Virus record (IMG/VR): IMGVR_UViG_3300032235_000051
Coordinates: 1 to 28,909 of that record
Reading direction: 5' to 3' (one strand)
DNA: 28,909 bases
Origin: a virus
The notes beneath the pieces are model-generated. The model ran no database searches. It saw only the letters and a program-made list of their open reading frames with translations, and was not told where the DNA came from. Below, piece by piece: positions 5,127 to 24,399 of this stretch. A program made the position numbers and the translations under genes. Each line of letters opens with the position of its first letter. Position 1 is the stretch's first letter.

Positions 5127-5471
5127 TTATTCCTCGTAAATGATCCAAGTTTTGGTGTATTCGTCCCAATAAAACAATTGATGATCGTTAGGTGGCATTA
5201 CTGGTGGTTGCCAACTATGACTTGCATTGTCAAATACCCAACTAGGATAAGGACGAGGAGGGATAAATTCATCTCTAAGTTGATCGTAATAAAATCCAGG
5301 GCTTGCAAATACTCTGCGAATATTGTTATTGTAAGAAGTCTTAAGCCAGCGTCCACCAAAAAGATTATGACAATAATCTATGCCTGCTTGTTCAGTGGGT
5401 TCTGCTTCATTGGGAATTACAATAACCCTAATTACAATATTTTTATCATCTATTTCTGCGTAATGTGCCAT
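5127..5471 (-). CDS. Conserved aquatic-phage accessory tail protein
   Basis: A 114-residue protein starting MAHYAEIDDKNIVIRVIVI and containing GGRWLKTSYN, FYYDQLRDEFIPPRPYPSW and a closing WDEYTKTWI. This pattern, with aromatic IPPRPYPSW, recurs in T4-like cyanophages and other marine phages near fibre genes, where its role is unknown. The copy here is complete and lies 3 nt upstream of the fibre gene and 9 nt downstream of the glycine-rich fibre gene. Function is not established. The position suggests a virion or fibre-assembly role. Confidence 0.65.
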   Translation of the reverse strand: MAHYAEIDDKNIVIRVIVIPNEAEPTEQAGIDYCHNLFGGRWLKTSYNNNIRRVFASPGFYYDQLRDEFIPPRPYPSWVFDNASHSWQPPVMPPNDHQLFYWDEYTKTWIIYEE

Positions 5472-5480
5472 GTCTATTCC

Positions 5481-6758
5481 TTAAAATGTAATTGATCCGC
5501 TGGCAGTGAACACGTGGAAAATTCTATTGCTTACTGTTGAAATGCTTCCGCCCGTTGCTACCACTGTGGTTCCAGTATAGGAAACTATAACAACACCTGA
5601 ACCGCCATTACCGCCTACAGTAGTTGATCCACCATCAGCAGCAGCACCACTACCGCCTGAACCTGAGTTTGCAAGGCCACTAACGCCATCATTTACAAAG
5701 TTAGAGTCACCTTGACCCCACCCGCCTGCAGCATAAGTGCTGGTATTCATAATCCAAGTAGCACCTGAGCCTGGTGTTCTTCCTGAGGCAGCACTGCCTT
5801 TGCCGCCGCCTCCTCCGCCTGCATAGTTGCCTGCGTTAGCGTCATTCTTTGTTCCGCCATCATTGCCTTGCCCAGCAGTACCAAGTCCAACTTGTGGATT
5901 ACCATTAGAGCCTGAAGCGCCTGCGCCAGACCCACCATTGATTAAACTAATTGCATCTTGGTCAGCAAGAACGCCAGCACCGCCAGCTATAGTTGTGTAA
6001 TCGCCAAAGGAACTTCCGCTGCCTTTAGTGCCGTTGCTTGACTGTGCACCACCTGTTCCGCCTGCACCAACTACAATTGAAATTGGATCTTCGCCCTGAG
6101 CAATTAGCACTGTGCCTGTGATCATACCACCTGCGCCTGCTCCGCCGCCGCCAGTTGCGCCTGATGGATAACGTCCTGCAGCACCGCCGCCGCCTGCAAC
6201 TACTAGGTAAGATACTAGATAATAAGCGCCATTTACAATCTTGTCGTTGTGAATATAAAAATATCCATTCTTTTCTTCACTCCAAATTGCTAGCAAACCA
6301 TCAATAGTTGATGCTGCACCTGTATCTTCTGAACTATTCCAAATGCTGCGAATATCACCAATAGCACCTGTGGTAGGAACTGCTTGATAAGTGCAGGTTG
6401 TAATTGCATTAGCTGTTCCAGATCCGCCGCCGCCAGTTACGGAGATTGTGCCATCACCTGTGATAGCAATACCGCTGCCAATCTTTACACCACCTAGTGT
6501 AGAAGTAGTTGCTGTTGTTAATGCACCTCCGCCGCCTGCGCTGGTAAAAGTCACTGTCTTGGTAGAAGTATTAATACTAATACCCATGCCAGTTCCTGCT
6601 GCAAATGTCAGTGTATCATTAAGATTCAAGGAAGCTGAACCGCTTCCTGTGGTAATTGCAATTGTTGCCTGTTGGAGATTTGTTAGGTTAGTGTCCATCT
6701 CATTAAGTGTGAGTGGGCTACCTTTAACAAGTCTAAGGGTTAGGCTTGGTAAAGCCAT
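5481..6758 (-). CDS. Glycine-rich tail fibre protein, probable receptor-binding tip
   Basis: A 425-residue protein with three parts. Residues 1-35 carry the shared attachment motif (LRLVKGSPLTLNEMDTN). A middle segment precedes a long glycine-rich domain, from about 180 to 390, with blocks such as VVAGGGGAA, GGGGAGAGG and GGGGGGKG. The C-terminal end (GGSGVVIVSYTG ... ATGGSISTVSNRIFHVFTAS) is the usual close of glycine-rich phage fibre proteins. Poly-glycine sandwich tips of this kind bind receptors in some T4-like adhesins. A TAAATA-type motif at 6793-6800 and AAGGAG precede the ATG. Locally the DNA is much richer in G+C because of glycine and alanine codons. Confidence 0.75.
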   Translation of the reverse strand: MALPSLTLRLVKGSPLTLNEMDTNLTNLQQATIAITTGSGSASLNLNDTLTFAAGTGMGISINTSTKTVTFTSAGGGGALTTATTSTLGGVKIGSGIAITGDGTISVTGGGGSGTANAITTCTYQAVPTTGAIGDIRSIWNSSEDTGAASTIDGLLAIWSEEKNGYFYIHNDKIVNGAYYLVSYLVVAGGGGAAGRYPSGATGGGGAGAGGMITGTVLIAQGEDPISIVVGAGGTGGAQSSNGTKGSGSSFGDYTTIAGGAGVLADQDAISLINGGSGAGASGSNGNPQVGLGTAGQGNDGGTKNDANAGNYAGGGGGGKGSAASGRTPGSGATWIMNTSTYAAGGWGQGDSNFVNDGVSGLANSGSGGSGAAADGGSTTVGGNGGSGVVIVSYTGTTVVATGGSISTVSNRIFHVFTASGSITF

Positions 6759-6792: not shown

Positions 6793-6800
6793 TATTTATT
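6793..6800 (-). promoter_or_regulatory. AATAAATA late-type promoter motif
   Basis: Minus-strand AATAAATA lies 34 nt before the ATG at 6758. The predicted start coincides with the palindrome ACGAATTCGT (6779-6788). A small CCTC-TTTTT-GAGG hairpin (6805-6817) lies just upstream. AAGGAG is present before the ATG. Confidence 0.45.
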
Positions 6801-6834: not shown

Positions 6835-7512
6835 TTAGATTAGTTTAAGATAAAATGCTGCCAACATGTTACCATGGTCTGGCGAGGTTGATTCGTCATC
6901 CATGTCAATTGTACCTGATTGAGGAGTATCTGCTTTGTTGTAAATGATGTGCTTAGTAAACGCCCAGTTATTAGTGTTATCTGGAGTTTCTGTCATTGTC
7001 AAACTGCTGGTTCTAGGATCAATAACAAATGGACTAGCATACCAACCAAATCCTATAATTGGACCTTCTGCTCCTGCCATGGCAATTGTCTTTTGACTAG
7101 GATTGCCTGTGGTAAGTTCATAAGATACTCCTTGAGCACTAACCCCTGCAATTACCGCATCAGGTCTAAACACTAACAAGATCATATTATTACCAGTTAC
7201 TATACCACTTACAGATGTTAAATCATCAAATTCTGTTAATACCTTAAATGATACTTGTAATCTTCCTGTATAGCTTGGAATTGAATAGGTATCTTGTAAT
7301 ACTCTTGTCCACCCTGCATTGAGATATTCATCAGGCATAGTGCTTTTACTAGCGTATTCAAATAATACAGCAATGTCATTAACTGCGGTACCTGAAGGAT
7401 AATTTATTGTATAACCTGTGGCATTGCCACTGACTTTAGTACCATATCCGTGAAAAGTCACAGAACTAACAGCACTACCAACATTTCTTGCTACTTTAGC
7501 AGCGCCAAACAT
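6835..7512 (-). CDS. Putative tail fibre/receptor-binding protein, second gene of duplicated cassette
   Basis: A 225-residue beta-rich protein, coupled to the upstream fibre gene by TAATG. It has the same layout as the 3877-4563 protein: an early hydrophobic strand after an NDIAVLFEYA turn, an AGW turn near residue 60, ILLVFRPDAVI near 120 and a hydrophobic C-terminus. Sequence identity with that protein is low, as expected for variable adhesins. No enzyme motif is visible. The role in host recognition is inference. Confidence 0.6.
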   Translation of the reverse strand: MFGAAKVARNVGSAVSSVTFHGYGTKVSGNATGYTINYPSGTAVNDIAVLFEYASKSTMPDEYLNAGWTRVLQDTYSIPSYTGRLQVSFKVLTEFDDLTSVSGIVTGNNMILLVFRPDAVIAGVSAQGVSYELTTGNPSQKTIAMAGAEGPIIGFGWYASPFVIDPRTSSLTMTETPDNTNNWAFTKHIIYNKADTPQSGTIDMDDESTSPDHGNMLAAFYLKLI

Positions 7513-8012
7513 TAGGCAAATCCTTTTGCTAAACTAGCCCAATAAGTTGTGCCATCATAGAACACATACATGATATCTGTGGCGTTTACAGCACTTGACA
7601 ATGTTTTCAATCCTTGTGCAAACTTCATTGAACTAGTCAATGCTCTATTGCCTGTGCCATCTTGTGTAAGAATTAGTGTGATATTTGATCCAGTTACTGC
7701 ATTAGACAATGAGTTGATTGTTGTTGCAGTTGTTAACACCATTTTGTGAACTGTACCTGAGGAACAGTCTGGAGTAAGTGTACCACCTGTGTTACCATGA
7801 TTGTAAACAGTTTCGTTAACGCCTTTGATGCCCATAACACCAGTAAATGTCTTTGCACCTGAAATTGTTTGAGCAGTGTCTGTGGTAACGATTGAAGTTG
7901 AAGTTTGAATAGCCTCAATGGCTGACTTCAAATTAGTAAAATTTGTGTCCATTTCAGTGAATGTAAGTTCACTGCCTTTGACATTGCGCAGTGTAATGCC
8001 TGTAACAGCCAT
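7512..8012 (-). CDS. Tail fibre protein with cyanophage-like N-terminal attachment domain (cassette copy 1)
   Basis: A 166-residue paralogue of the 4563-5123 protein. It shows the same N-terminal motif (LRNVKGSELTFTEMDTNF) and the same C-terminal module (SGAKTFTG, ETVYN, TGNRALTSSMKFAQG, FYDGTTYW, KGFA). An AATAAATA motif lies at 8039-8046 and AAGGAGATT sits close to the ATG, so it probably starts its own transcript. Its stop overlaps the start of its partner by 1 nt. It is likely part of the fibre complex. Confidence 0.7.
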   Translation of the reverse strand: MAVTGITLRNVKGSELTFTEMDTNFTNLKSAIEAIQTSTSIVTTDTAQTISGAKTFTGVMGIKGVNETVYNHGNTGGTLTPDCSSGTVHKMVLTTATTINSLSNAVTGSNITLILTQDGTGNRALTSSMKFAQGLKTLSSAVNATDIMYVFYDGTTYWASLAKGFA

Positions 8013-8038: not shown

Positions 8039-8046
8039 TATTTATT
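8039..8046 (-). promoter_or_regulatory. AATAAATA late-type promoter motif
   Basis: Lies 26 nt before the ATG at 8012, in the gap after the 8052-8294 gene, and 13 nt after the hairpin at 8059-8080. AAGGAG follows. It should start the fibre-block transcript. Confidence 0.45.
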
Positions 8047-8294: not shown

Positions 8295-8724
8295 AAAATA
8301 ATTTTCCTATATTTGTAGTGTTAGCATAAGGGTTGCGATTATTAATCCTATTCACAAAATCCAAAGCAGACATCATTAATTTCCAAGCATATGTTTTAAA
8401 TTGACTTTTGTCTAAAACTCTATCATACTTAGACCAATATTTGTCTAATGTTAATTGTGCTTGTGCAAATGCCATTTCCTCATTGGACTTTAATAATCCT
8501 GGATGTTCTCTGGCCAGTAAGTCTAGTACAATTACCATTTTTGCCCAATCTTCATTTGAATATTTGTGTAGGAAATCCCCCCATAGTATGCTATTATTCT
8601 TTTTGACTTCACCGTCTTCTTCAATGATGGTGTTCAGCATTTCAGTTAGTCGCTTAAGTTGCTGGACTCCGTCATTGATGATTATTTCCTCGTAATCATC
8701 CATCATCCTTTCTAGGATTTTCAT
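8281..8724 (-). CDS. Unknown helical protein
   Basis: A 147-residue protein of mainly helical, acidic character (MMDDYEEIIINDGVQQLKRL, then EEDGEVKKNN, then AREHPGLLKSNEEMAFAQAQ). I chose the ATG at 8724 because AAGGAG lies just upstream. A start at 8775 has no such site and would extend further into the upstream gene. With this start it overlaps the upstream gene by 29 nt. I do not recognise the family. A PF.VNRINN-like C-terminal stretch (LDFVNRINNRNPYANT) is the only distinctive segment. The position in the small-gene cassette suggests a non-virion role. Confidence 0.6.
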   Translation of the reverse strand: MKILERMMDDYEEIIINDGVQQLKRLTEMLNTIIEEDGEVKKNNSILWGDFLHKYSNEDWAKMVIVLDLLAREHPGLLKSNEEMAFAQAQLTLDKYWSKYDRVLDKSQFKTYAWKLMMSALDFVNRINNRNPYANTTNIGKLFYVES

Positions 8725-9052
8725 TATTTTTCTCCTTGTTGCGGTTTTCACGATGACGCTTAAGGTTAGCTTCACTGACCTGCAAACGACGTGACATTAT
8801 TTTACAGTTGTCTAATGACCATGGTCCTGTAAAATTCTCTCTGGCCATAGCTAGGCAATCACTGTGGCGACCTCTTTGGTCCCATAGGTGATCCTGCCAT
8901 AGATAGCAATATTCTTCAAATGTTAGTGTGAATTCTTCACCGCGAAAATTTGCTTGTGCGCGGGCTCTTAGAAAAGGTAGATACTTGCGATGTACAAGCG
9001 GATCTGAATACTTCCAACGTGCTGGTCTAACTGATCCTTTTGATTGTGACAT
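8696..9052 (-). CDS. HNH-fold-like protein lacking the catalytic histidines
   Basis: A 118-residue basic protein. The segment FEEYCYLWQ ... CLAMARENFTGPWSLDNCKIMSRRLQ resembles the core of phage HNH proteins, in which R.D..G.W...N....R follows the active site. The usual His-Asn-His residues are not seen here. The C-terminal 30 residues are a charged tail (RHRENRNKEKNNENP). It sits immediately after a true HNH gene (9053-9499), with AAGGAA and a start 2 nt from that gene's stop. It could be a degenerate homing endonuclease or a DNA-binding protein with the same fold. Confidence 0.6.
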   Translation of the reverse strand: MSQSKGSVRPARWKYSDPLVHRKYLPFLRARAQANFRGEEFTLTFEEYCYLWQDHLWDQRGRHSDCLAMARENFTGPWSLDNCKIMSRRLQVSEANLKRHRENRNKEKNNENPRKDDG

Positions 9053-9499
9053 TTATTTGTTCCTTTTATATTTTGTTGTTGTTAATGCTTGCTCTGGCGT
9101 ATAACCAAGATCTACAATGCGGCTCCAAATAGTTGTTGACTTAAGTCCAACATATTTGCTCCACTCTGACAGAGTCATAGTTTTACCAAATGCAGTTAGG
9201 ATCATATTAGATCTGCGATTATTGTGATTTTCTCTAGGAGTGGCCCAACGAACGTTACCAGGAAAGTAACCACGGTTGTTGTCTATTCTATCTAAATGTG
9301 CTCCTGGAAAAGGAACAGGGCCTATAGTATTTTCTATATCTTCAACAAATTGTTCAAATGTTGACCATTCTGGTGTATAAGTGATTCCTCTACCACCGTA
9401 ATAACTGTAACTACGATTATTTGGGTTATCACATGCATTTTTCATTGTTGCCCATCTTCCCCATAAAGGGTGATGTGGATTGGCTACTCCATTGATCAT
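9053..9499 (-). CDS. HNH homing-type endonuclease
   Basis: A 148-residue free-standing endonuclease. An N-terminal LWGRWATMKNAC, then YYGGRGITYTPEWSTFEQF at 33-51 and the core HLDRIDNNRGYFPGNVRWAT at 68-87 followed by REN and NNRRSN are the standard phage HNH signature. The C-terminal 40 residues (TMTLSEWSKYVGLKSTTIW ... GYTPEQAL) look like a small helix-turn-helix DNA-binding repeat of NUMOD type. The likely role is mobility of its own locus by cutting related phages. Its ribosome binding site AGGAG (9508-9512) is locked in a 9-bp hairpin that also holds TATAAATA. Confidence 0.85.
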   Translation of the reverse strand: MINGVANPHHPLWGRWATMKNACDNPNNRSYSYYGGRGITYTPEWSTFEQFVEDIENTIGPVPFPGAHLDRIDNNRGYFPGNVRWATPRENHNNRRSNMILTAFGKTMTLSEWSKYVGLKSTTIWSRIVDLGYTPEQALTTTKYKRNK

Positions 9500-9503
9500 A
9501 AAA

Positions 9504-9536
9504 ATATCTCCTCTATTGTATTTATAAAGGAGATAT
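9504..9536 (-). promoter_or_regulatory. RBS-sequestering hairpin with internal late-type promoter
   Basis: On the minus strand ATATCTCCT (9536-9528) and AGGAGATAT (9512-9504) form a perfect 9-bp stem with a 15-nt loop. The 3' arm contains the Shine-Dalgarno sequence of the HNH gene, 8 nt from its ATG at 9499. The loop side holds TATAAATA (9526-9519). A T4-type late start about six bases on falls near 9513, so the transcript would lack the 5' arm and keep the binding site free. Read-through transcripts would be shut off. This is the known design of T4 I-TevI. Here it is inferred from sequence. Confidence 0.65.
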
Positions 9537-10214: not shown

Positions 10215-11018
10215 TTATCCTAACAAATCTTTGGCATTTTTATTTTTAACCTTTTGACCAGGTTTAATGCTTACAGTGGCAATGACATTCTTCTTACGTT
10301 GTGCGTCTGACAAGTATCCACGGTCACCACGCATTTTCCATAACCATTGTTGATCATTGTACAGCAAGGAAATAATATAGTGACCTGGTTCTTCTAATTC
10401 TGCAAGTACTACGCTAAGACCTTCAATTGACTGCCCCTGTGTCTTATATCTGTATTCGTAAAATTTACTAGCACGAACATTTTTAAAGTTTACTTTGAAT
10501 TCTTCATAGGTATCACGTACATTTTGATAGTGAGGATCATTTTCCCAAACACTAGATTCTAATCCTCTTTTCATATGGCGGAATGGACTATTAATATCTG
10601 ATCTAAACTTCATCCAATCTTGCTGTCCTGATTTCTTAACGGACAATGATATTCTAAGTTTTCTTTTATTTTTTTGAAGTTGTTCAACAGTGCTGTTATC
10701 AAATAAGTCTATTTTGATAAAGTCCCAGTTAGCAGGGATGTTAGGGTCTTGAATGAGATTCTTCAATGCCTCTGTCGCGGGCGCTGCAACAAACTCACCT
10801 GAATCACCTGACCCACCTGAACCTTTAGGTTCGCGCAGCGAAGAGCGAAGCGATCCACGAAGTGGGGCCACTTCCAAGGCGTAGCCTTCAGTTATTGGTT
10901 TGTTACGCTCAGGCGTACTAACATTAATATATTCGTTGTTATTCGTTGTTATTATGTTGTTATTGTTGTTAATAGTTGTACGGCCTAGACCATAAAAAAA
11001 ATCTGTAGATTCAGTCAT
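10215..11018 (-). CDS. Unknown DNA/RNA-related candidate protein with inserted palindromic repeat segment
   Basis: A 267-residue protein and the first gene of the small-gene cassette. I chose the ATG at 11018, preceded by AAGGATAACAAT, over a TTG at 11045. Three parts are visible. Residues 1-60 are low complexity and Asn-rich, encoded by short tandem repeats. Residues about 35-70 (GYALEVAPLRGSLRSS then REPKGSGG) are encoded by a GC-rich cluster of hairpins unlike the flanks. Residues about 80-267 form a basic, probably globular domain with many Lys, Arg, Trp and Tyr (KSGQQDWMKFRSDIN, DQQWLWKMRGDRGYLSDA). It could bind nucleic acid, for example as a single-strand binding protein, but I recognise no family. 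Confidence 0.65.
   Translation of the reverse strand: MTESTDFFYGLGRTTINNNNNIITTNNNEYINVSTPERNKPITEGYALEVAPLRGSLRSSLREPKGSGGSGDSGEFVAAPATEALKNLIQDPNIPANWDFIKIDLFDNSTVEQLQKNKRKLRISLSVKKSGQQDWMKFRSDINSPFRHMKRGLESSVWENDPHYQNVRDTYEEFKVNFKNVRASKFYEYRYKTQGQSIEGLSVVLAELEEPGHYIISLLYNDQQWLWKMRGDRGYLSDAQRKKNVIATVSIKPGQKVKNKNAKDLLG
10830..10917. repeat. Cluster of four GC-rich hairpins inside a coding region
   Basis: Four short inverted repeats lie within 88 bases: TTCGC-GCA-GCGAA (10830-10842), GAAGTGG-GG-CCACTTC (10859-10874), AAGGC-GTA-GCCTT (10876-10888) and TACGC-TCAG-GCGTA (10904-10917). The stretch is far richer in G+C than its AT-rich surroundings and keeps the reading frame of the 10215-11018 gene. 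Such in-frame palindromic elements resemble Rickettsia palindromic elements and cyanobacterial dispersed repeats. Only one copy is seen in this window. Confidence 0.7.
10921..10980. repeat. Short tandem repeats coding an Asn-rich tract
   Basis: Plus-strand units such as ATTCGTTGTT (two adjacent copies, 10931-10950) and further ATTGTTGTT-like units run through this region. On the coding strand they give an Asn-rich tract near the N-terminus of the 10215-11018 protein. Slippage could change its length without always breaking the frame, since several units are multiples of three. Confidence 0.6.
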
Positions 11019-11046
11019 ATTGTTATCCTTCTTAATGGCTGTCAAT

Positions 11047-11064: not shown

Positions 11065-11072
11065 TATTTATA
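11065..11072 (-). promoter_or_regulatory. TATAAATA late-type promoter motif
   Basis: A perfect minus-strand TATAAATA lies upstream of the small-gene cassette, after the terminator at 11113-11154. A host-type alternative is also present: TTGATT (11107-11112), 18 bases, TATATT (11083-11088). Either could start the unit that covers 11018 to 8052. Confidence 0.5.
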
Positions 11073-11112: not shown

Positions 11113-11154
11113 CCAAAAGAAAATCCCCAGGCCTCACCATAAAACCTGGGGATT
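11113..11154 (-). terminator. Rho-independent terminator
   Basis: On the minus strand AATCCCCAGG (11154-11145) pairs with CCTGGGGATT (11131-11122), a perfect 10-bp stem with a 13-nt loop, followed by TTTCTTTTGG. It ends the tail operon or the structured RNA at 11122-11268 and separates it from the next unit. Confidence 0.85.
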
Positions 11155-23756: not shown

Positions 23757-23793
23757 AAGAATAGGGTGATTTAACTAATAAACCACCCTATTC
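23757..23793 (-). terminator. Terminator-like hairpin after moron genes
   Basis: GAATAGGGTG (23793-23784 read on the minus strand) pairs with CACCCTATTC (23768-23759), a perfect 10-bp stem with a 15-nt loop, followed by a short TT run. It follows the lipoprotein gene by about 50 nt. The U tract is weak, so efficiency is uncertain. Confidence 0.6.
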
Positions 23794-24263: not shown

Positions 24264-24301
24264 TAAGAAACCCTAGACTCTAGCAAATAAGCCTAGGGTT
24301 T
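24264..24301 (-). terminator. Terminator-like hairpin ending the short RNA
   Basis: AAACCCTAG (24301-24293 on the minus strand) pairs with CTAGGGTTT (24276-24268), 9 bp with a 16-nt loop, followed by CTTATT. The A/U base of the stem supplies part of the U run. It lies between two sigma70 promoters that face the same way. Confidence 0.6.
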
Positions 24302-24334
24302 CCGTTCTATGATAGTATGTAACCTTGTACTGGC
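24266..24334 (-). ncRNA. Candidate short phage RNA (about 65-70 nt)
   Basis: A fully consensus promoter (24341-24369) and a hairpin 33 nt further on frame a transcript of about 65-70 nt. The only frame in it codes 14 residues without a ribosome binding site, so a non-coding role is more likely. It has no tRNA shape. It could be a regulatory RNA, or an attenuator for the moron genes. No homology is known to me. Confidence 0.45.
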
Positions 24335-24371: not shown

Positions 24372-24399
24372 AAAAGGAAAGGGCCCTAAAGCCCTTTCC
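24372..24399 (-). terminator. Rho-independent terminator after the major capsid gene
   Basis: GGAAAGGGC (24399-24391, minus strand) pairs with GCCCTTTCC (24384-24376), 9 bp with a 6-nt loop, followed by TTTTGG. It lies 24 nt after the capsid stop and isolates the moron island from head transcription. Confidence 0.88.

Follow-up and report, generated by a model that had tools for sequence, protein, structure and literature searches.

The homing endonuclease gene I-TevI of phage T4 is a known case of a late promoter placed inside an RNA hairpin: the Shine-Dalgarno sequence (SD) is hidden in the long early and middle RNAs and open in the short RNA (PMC2988022). SD-hiding hairpins with internal late promoters have been described for I-TevI, I-TevII, I-TevIII, segB and mobE of Aeromonas phage Aeh1, the last being an HNH gene, and structures hiding the ribosome-binding site have been reviewed for T4 gene e and soc (PMC2988022, PMC3014915). 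The switch has so far been described in T4-like phages. Here we report a leader at the putative nuclease gene of a small aquatic siphophage and propose, with moderate confidence and from sequence, that it is a cis-acting T4-type late-translation switch at an HNH-type gene, outside the T4-like phages.

The window, i.e. the whole stretch of 28,909 nucleotides that was analysed, is a virus record encoding an SPP1-type portal, a siphovirus capsid, a tape measure protein and a J-like tail protein. Its portal is 48-50% identical to those of Pelagibacter phages HTVC202P, 111P, 112P and 026P and of lake phage DSL-LC06, and the majority of structural genes match the DSL-LC06 clade. The initial annotation had spoken of a phage without the rest of a T4-like genome, and portal, capsid and tape measure, all of the DSL-LC06/pelagiphage siphovirus type, bear this out. 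With the large terminase gene split between the two ends of the contig, the window very probably represents a nearly complete siphophage genome of about 29 kb in circular permutation. No replication gene was recognised among the window proteins scanned, and none is annotated in DSL-LC06. Exchange with T4-like phages has probably taken place in the tail-fibre region, because the small gene 5127-5471 (phrog_7759) there is common to T4-like cyanophages, pelagiphages and Methylophilales phages. Strong intergenic inverted repeats (24267-24302, 24376-24399, 23759-23793 and 11122-11154), likely terminators, surround the capsid gene and precede the accessory module.

On the minus strand, positions 9536 to 9504 read ATATCTCCT-TTATAAATACAATAG-AGGAGATAT, followed by TTTT and the ATG at 9499; the bases directly upstream of ATATCTCCT in the leader are ttagtt (features in the table below). 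The stem comprises nine perfect pairs, or 13, one of them G-U, when TTAT/ATAG is counted, and AGGAG (9512-9508) falls entirely within the 3' arm, 8 nt upstream of the ATG. Transcripts from T4 late promoters start 5-6 bases downstream of the motif. A T4-type start after TATAAATA would fall at 9513, one base ahead of the 3' arm, so AGGAG would be retained in the short RNA and the 5' arm would be missing from it. The layout is thus as first annotated: a 9-bp perfect stem over the AGGAG of the HNH gene, TATAAATA inside the same hairpin (9526-9519) at T4-late spacing, and a start predicted at about 9513, at the edge of the 3' arm. A sigma-70 reading of the loop was rejected: from TACAAT, transcription would begin within the SD itself, and the scan called no promoter there whose -35 was acceptable. 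A search of the leader against Rfam gave no match, and comparison of its DNA with known phages gave a single, chance-level match to a Staphylococcus phage.

Table. Features of the HNH-type gene, its leader and the ATAAATA sites of the window
Feature	Position	Strand	Basis
HNH-type endonuclease gene, 148 aa, ATG 9499-9497, C-terminal helix-turn-helix-like region	9053..9499	-	PHROG 3377
Gene directly 3' of the HNH gene; relative of a DSL-LC06 gene annotated PacI-like restriction endonuclease	8696..9052	-	33% over 75 aa
5' arm, ATATCTCCT (anti-SD)	9528..9536	-	sequence and pairing
TATAAATA, T4-late-like promoter element, stem top and loop	9519..9526	-	motif match; clade-wide ATAAATA placement
Predicted late transcript start, leader of 13-14 nt	9512..9513	-	inferred from T4 late promoter spacing
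3' arm, AGGAGATAT, holding the SD AGGAG (9508-9512)	9504..9512	-	sequence, pairing, SD accessibility
Five-T run after the stem, possible weak terminator	9500..9504	-	terminator scan
ATAAATA upstream of gene 5481-6758	6793..6799	-	motif scan
ATAAATA upstream of gene 7512-8012, just past a terminator-like hairpin	8039..8045	-	motif scan
ATAAATA upstream of gene 10215-11045 (TATAAATA at 11065-11072)	11065..11071	-	motif scan
Strong hairpin of terminator type, ahead of the 11065 motif	11122..11154	-	terminator scan

Compared with I-TevI, which lies in the td intron, the window leader follows the same logic: the long RNA would hide the SD and an internal late promoter would give an open short RNA. 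Yet I-TevI is intron-encoded, of the GIY-YIG type and carried by a phage with gp55, whereas the window gene is HNH-type and no gp55 was found. In I-TevI, moreover, the promoter itself forms the 5' arm, whereas in the window this arm is CTCCT and TATAAATA lies mostly in the loop. The T4 segB leader, AGGAGATATTTATG, is nearly the same as AGGAGATATTTTTATG of the window and has the same geometry. Both segB and Aeh1 mobE are free-standing homing endonuclease genes with SD hairpins, and mobE is HNH, as is the label of the window gene, but they belong to T4-like myophages and to protein families other than phrog_3377. T4 gene e also resembles the window in having TATAAATA a few bases ahead of the SD, a short leader and an upstream 5' arm (PMC3014915), although it is a lysozyme gene in a gp55-encoding phage. 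The initial equation with the I-TevI arrangement holds for the geometry and the long-closed, short-open logic and is too narrow, given that gene e, segB, mobE and structural genes of uncultivated T4-like phages have it too.

The SD is predicted to be unpaired with a probability of 0.0002 in long transcripts, a value that stays constant with 40-250 nt of upstream and 12-100 nt of downstream sequence, and its predicted accessibility is 0.70-0.77 in RNAs starting at 9514-9512 (+4 to +6). The claim that long transcripts are silent and short late ones translated agrees, as a prediction, with this contrast (0.0002 vs about 0.7). Both marks of such a switch are thus predicted: the SD is in the stem of the read-through RNA, and the motif is placed so that a short RNA would drop the 5' arm. 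By predicted accessibility, the HNH gene has the most buried SD among the gene starts of the window. As a point against the switch, the other ATAAATA genes of this phage did not have robustly hidden SDs when RNA lengths were varied. Gene 5481-6758 at first seemed to have another hairpin hiding its SD, but this candidate was discarded, the effect not being robust to RNA length.

We infer folding in vivo, initiation at 9513 and timing as follows. Read-through RNA from upstream promoters would hold both arms, fold and hide the SD, and no endonuclease would be made. From TATAAATA inside the hairpin, a short RNA would start at about 9513, without the 5' arm and with a free SD, and would be translated. 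The endonuclease would then be made only while ATAAATA promoters are active, which would be late, judged by the genes they precede.

Since TATAAATA alone occurs in the window at chance frequency (2 found, 2.07 expected), the promoter claim needed independent evidence, and relatives were tested. The core ATAAATA is found six times on the coding strand of the window and never on the opposite one; four copies are intergenic against 0.64 expected (P=0.0045), 20-35 nt upstream of genes. DSL-LC06 (L082) has 7/8 of its copies on the coding strand, six of them preceding genes, including those for the small terminase subunit, head, scaffold and connector. Eight further clade contigs (L422-L429) hold 19 copies on the coding strand and 0 on the opposite one, mostly at conserved sites before late genes. 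Pooling the window, DSL-LC06 and these eight contigs gives 32 copies on the coding strand and one on the opposite; 21/32 coding-strand copies are 15-80 nt upstream of gene starts, in DNA that is 10% intergenic, and for the three sigma-70-like heptamers TATAATA, TATAATG and TTATAAT the score is 0. Among 21 heptamers of the same composition ATAAATA has the highest strand bias (30:1, the next about 2.5:1). Strand bias is, however, common to many purine-rich heptamers in the clade genomes, so that placement carries more weight. Almost no ATAAATA placement before genes is seen in marine relatives, whose A+T content is higher. No conserved -35 element was found around the clade copies. Judged from its placement, ATAAATA very probably is a genuine promoter element in the DSL-LC06 clade.

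A clade with T4-style late promoters and no recognisable gp55 raises the question of what reads them. Profiles for the late sigma gp55 and for generic sigma region 2 (phrog_234, PF04542 and phrog_12791) detected the T4 controls, but neither kind of homologue was found in the window, in DSL-LC06 or in the clade contigs. The combination of ATAAATA promoters without gp55, no recognised replication gene in a near-complete genome and a gene common to T4-like cyanophages led us to consider that a T4-like phage infecting the same cell might supply the gp55-type sigma that reads the clade's late promoters, that of the HNH hairpin included, which we hold to be a long shot. If true, these phages of ~29 kb would be helper-dependent, or the endonuclease would be expressed only with a competitor in the cell.

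The missing late sigma homologue also favours a different view of the leader, in which the hairpin represses constitutively or opens by another trigger (temperature, a protein or ribosome movement) and TATAAATA is not a promoter. The robust SD burial and the chance frequency of TATAAATA in the window fit this view, but it leaves aside the promoter-like placement of ATAAATA in window and clade, and the agreement of the TATAAATA spacing with the short-leader T4 cases; we regard it as unlikely, though worth keeping in mind. It is improbable that the hairpin and its T-run act instead as a weak intrinsic terminator halting read-through ahead of the endonuclease gene. The hairpin was indeed called terminator-like, with five T after the stem, as were other inverted repeats of the window, but its counted stem has three G-C pairs against six in the true-looking terminator at 11154-11122, and termination leaves the exact overlap with the SD unexplained. 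Both effects could coexist.

A strong SD might also have paired with an upstream CTCCT by chance, with no regulation at all. With about 40 starts in the window there is some room for this. In simulations with the SD held fixed and the upstream DNA simulated, however, an accessibility of 0.0005 or less was reached in 0/2000 cases (below 0.001 in 0.1%). An arm pair of the leader type appeared in 0/100 shuffles. The window has nine perfect inverted repeats of at least 9 bp, where 2.9 are expected, and AGGAG fell inside an inverted-repeat arm in 0/40 random sequences. Across about 40 gene starts, a stem of this size might arise by chance roughly at the per-cent level, unlikely but not negligible. 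For the full 101 nt, read on the + strand, the folding energy is unremarkable (z -0.07), and the case is carried by the local stem and where it lies. Chance pairing would also leave the promoter motif at its exact functional spacing as a coincidence, and we give this explanation very little weight.

The 148-aa protein matches PHROG 3377, 'HNH endonuclease' (E=7e-43), while Pfam returned no match, HNH included. Its AlphaFold model has a pLDDT of 90 and found no significant match in the PDB; the likeness of the C-terminal helices to LacI-type DNA-binding domains is weak and below significance. In the aligned family the first His is replaced by D-R. The 'HNH' label rests on PHROGs, and nuclease activity is putative. 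I-TevI acts as an autorepressor at its own late promoter. That the C-terminal helix-turn-helix of the HNH protein might likewise bind the inverted repeat as a DNA operator has the perfect repeat around a promoter and the faint LacI likeness in its favour, but the arms are simply SD and anti-SD, the fold match is not significant and we know of no homing target resembling this repeat, making it the least credible explanation.

The proposal that the whole control unit had been transferred with the endonuclease found no support in a comparison with 54 relatives of the HNH protein: none has TATAAATA within 70 nt, and their median SD exposure is 0.50 against a background of 0.49. A hairpin inherited with the HNH family was rejected on the same survey. 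No hairpin of this kind was found upstream of the two HNH genes of DSL-LC06, a further point against the switch. Convergence on a local promoter and import of a T4-like leader are both possible origins. Searches of IMG/VR and GTDB genomes for close relatives found none for the HNH gene, for the genes beside it or for the portal, nor, for an empty-site comparison, relatives sharing the flanking genes. An HNH-type gene adjoins a PacI-like gene both in the window (8696-9499) and in DSL-LC06 (L082:7322-8109), in opposite order.

In IMG/VR the pattern CTCCT-ATAAATA-AGGAG matched 80 loci, with an ATG and ORF next in 44/80, compared to 11/81 for a scrambled-core control. Many ORFs behind the matching leaders are T4-like late genes (neck adaptor, with 10 members, tail lysozyme, portal, protease and wedge), and two long contigs among these loci carry gp55. 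For instance, L189, L198, L227, L236 and L253, at neck and other late genes of uncultivated T4-like phages, read CTCCT-TATAAATA-AGGAG-ATG, in the layout of the window, although they serve structural genes and the window leader an HNH-type gene. In 11 aligned leaders, hand-picked as clear examples of the layout, 98% of stem pairing is kept, with 14 compensatory cells against 4.7 after shuffling (0/500); the fixed CTCCT/AGGAG arms are the search pattern and no evidence, so that the flanking pairs are what counts. Such matching leaders with compensatory changes at structural genes suggest that the hairpin-in-promoter design has a wider distribution than the T4 literature consulted implies. The leader of the window raises a second question, whether this design is a general means of silencing late genes in read-through RNA.

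In uncultivated T4-like phages, SD-hiding hairpins enclosing late promoters lie upstream of neck genes in L189, L198, L199, L227, L236, L241, L244 and L253. Six named T4-like phages (cyano-, pelagi- and methylophages) have no such hairpin before their neck genes, although ATAAATA is present there in 4/6 (Mosig, DSL-LC02, S-SM2 and Bellamy). In the control set, a GIY-YIG-like gene with a NUMOD3 motif (L355) has TATAAATACTCCTGT...ACAGGAGTATTTTTATG, arranged as in the window. A TnsA-like endonuclease-domain gene (L338:878, minus-strand start) has an SD-hiding hairpin of at least 10 bp, without ATAAATA.
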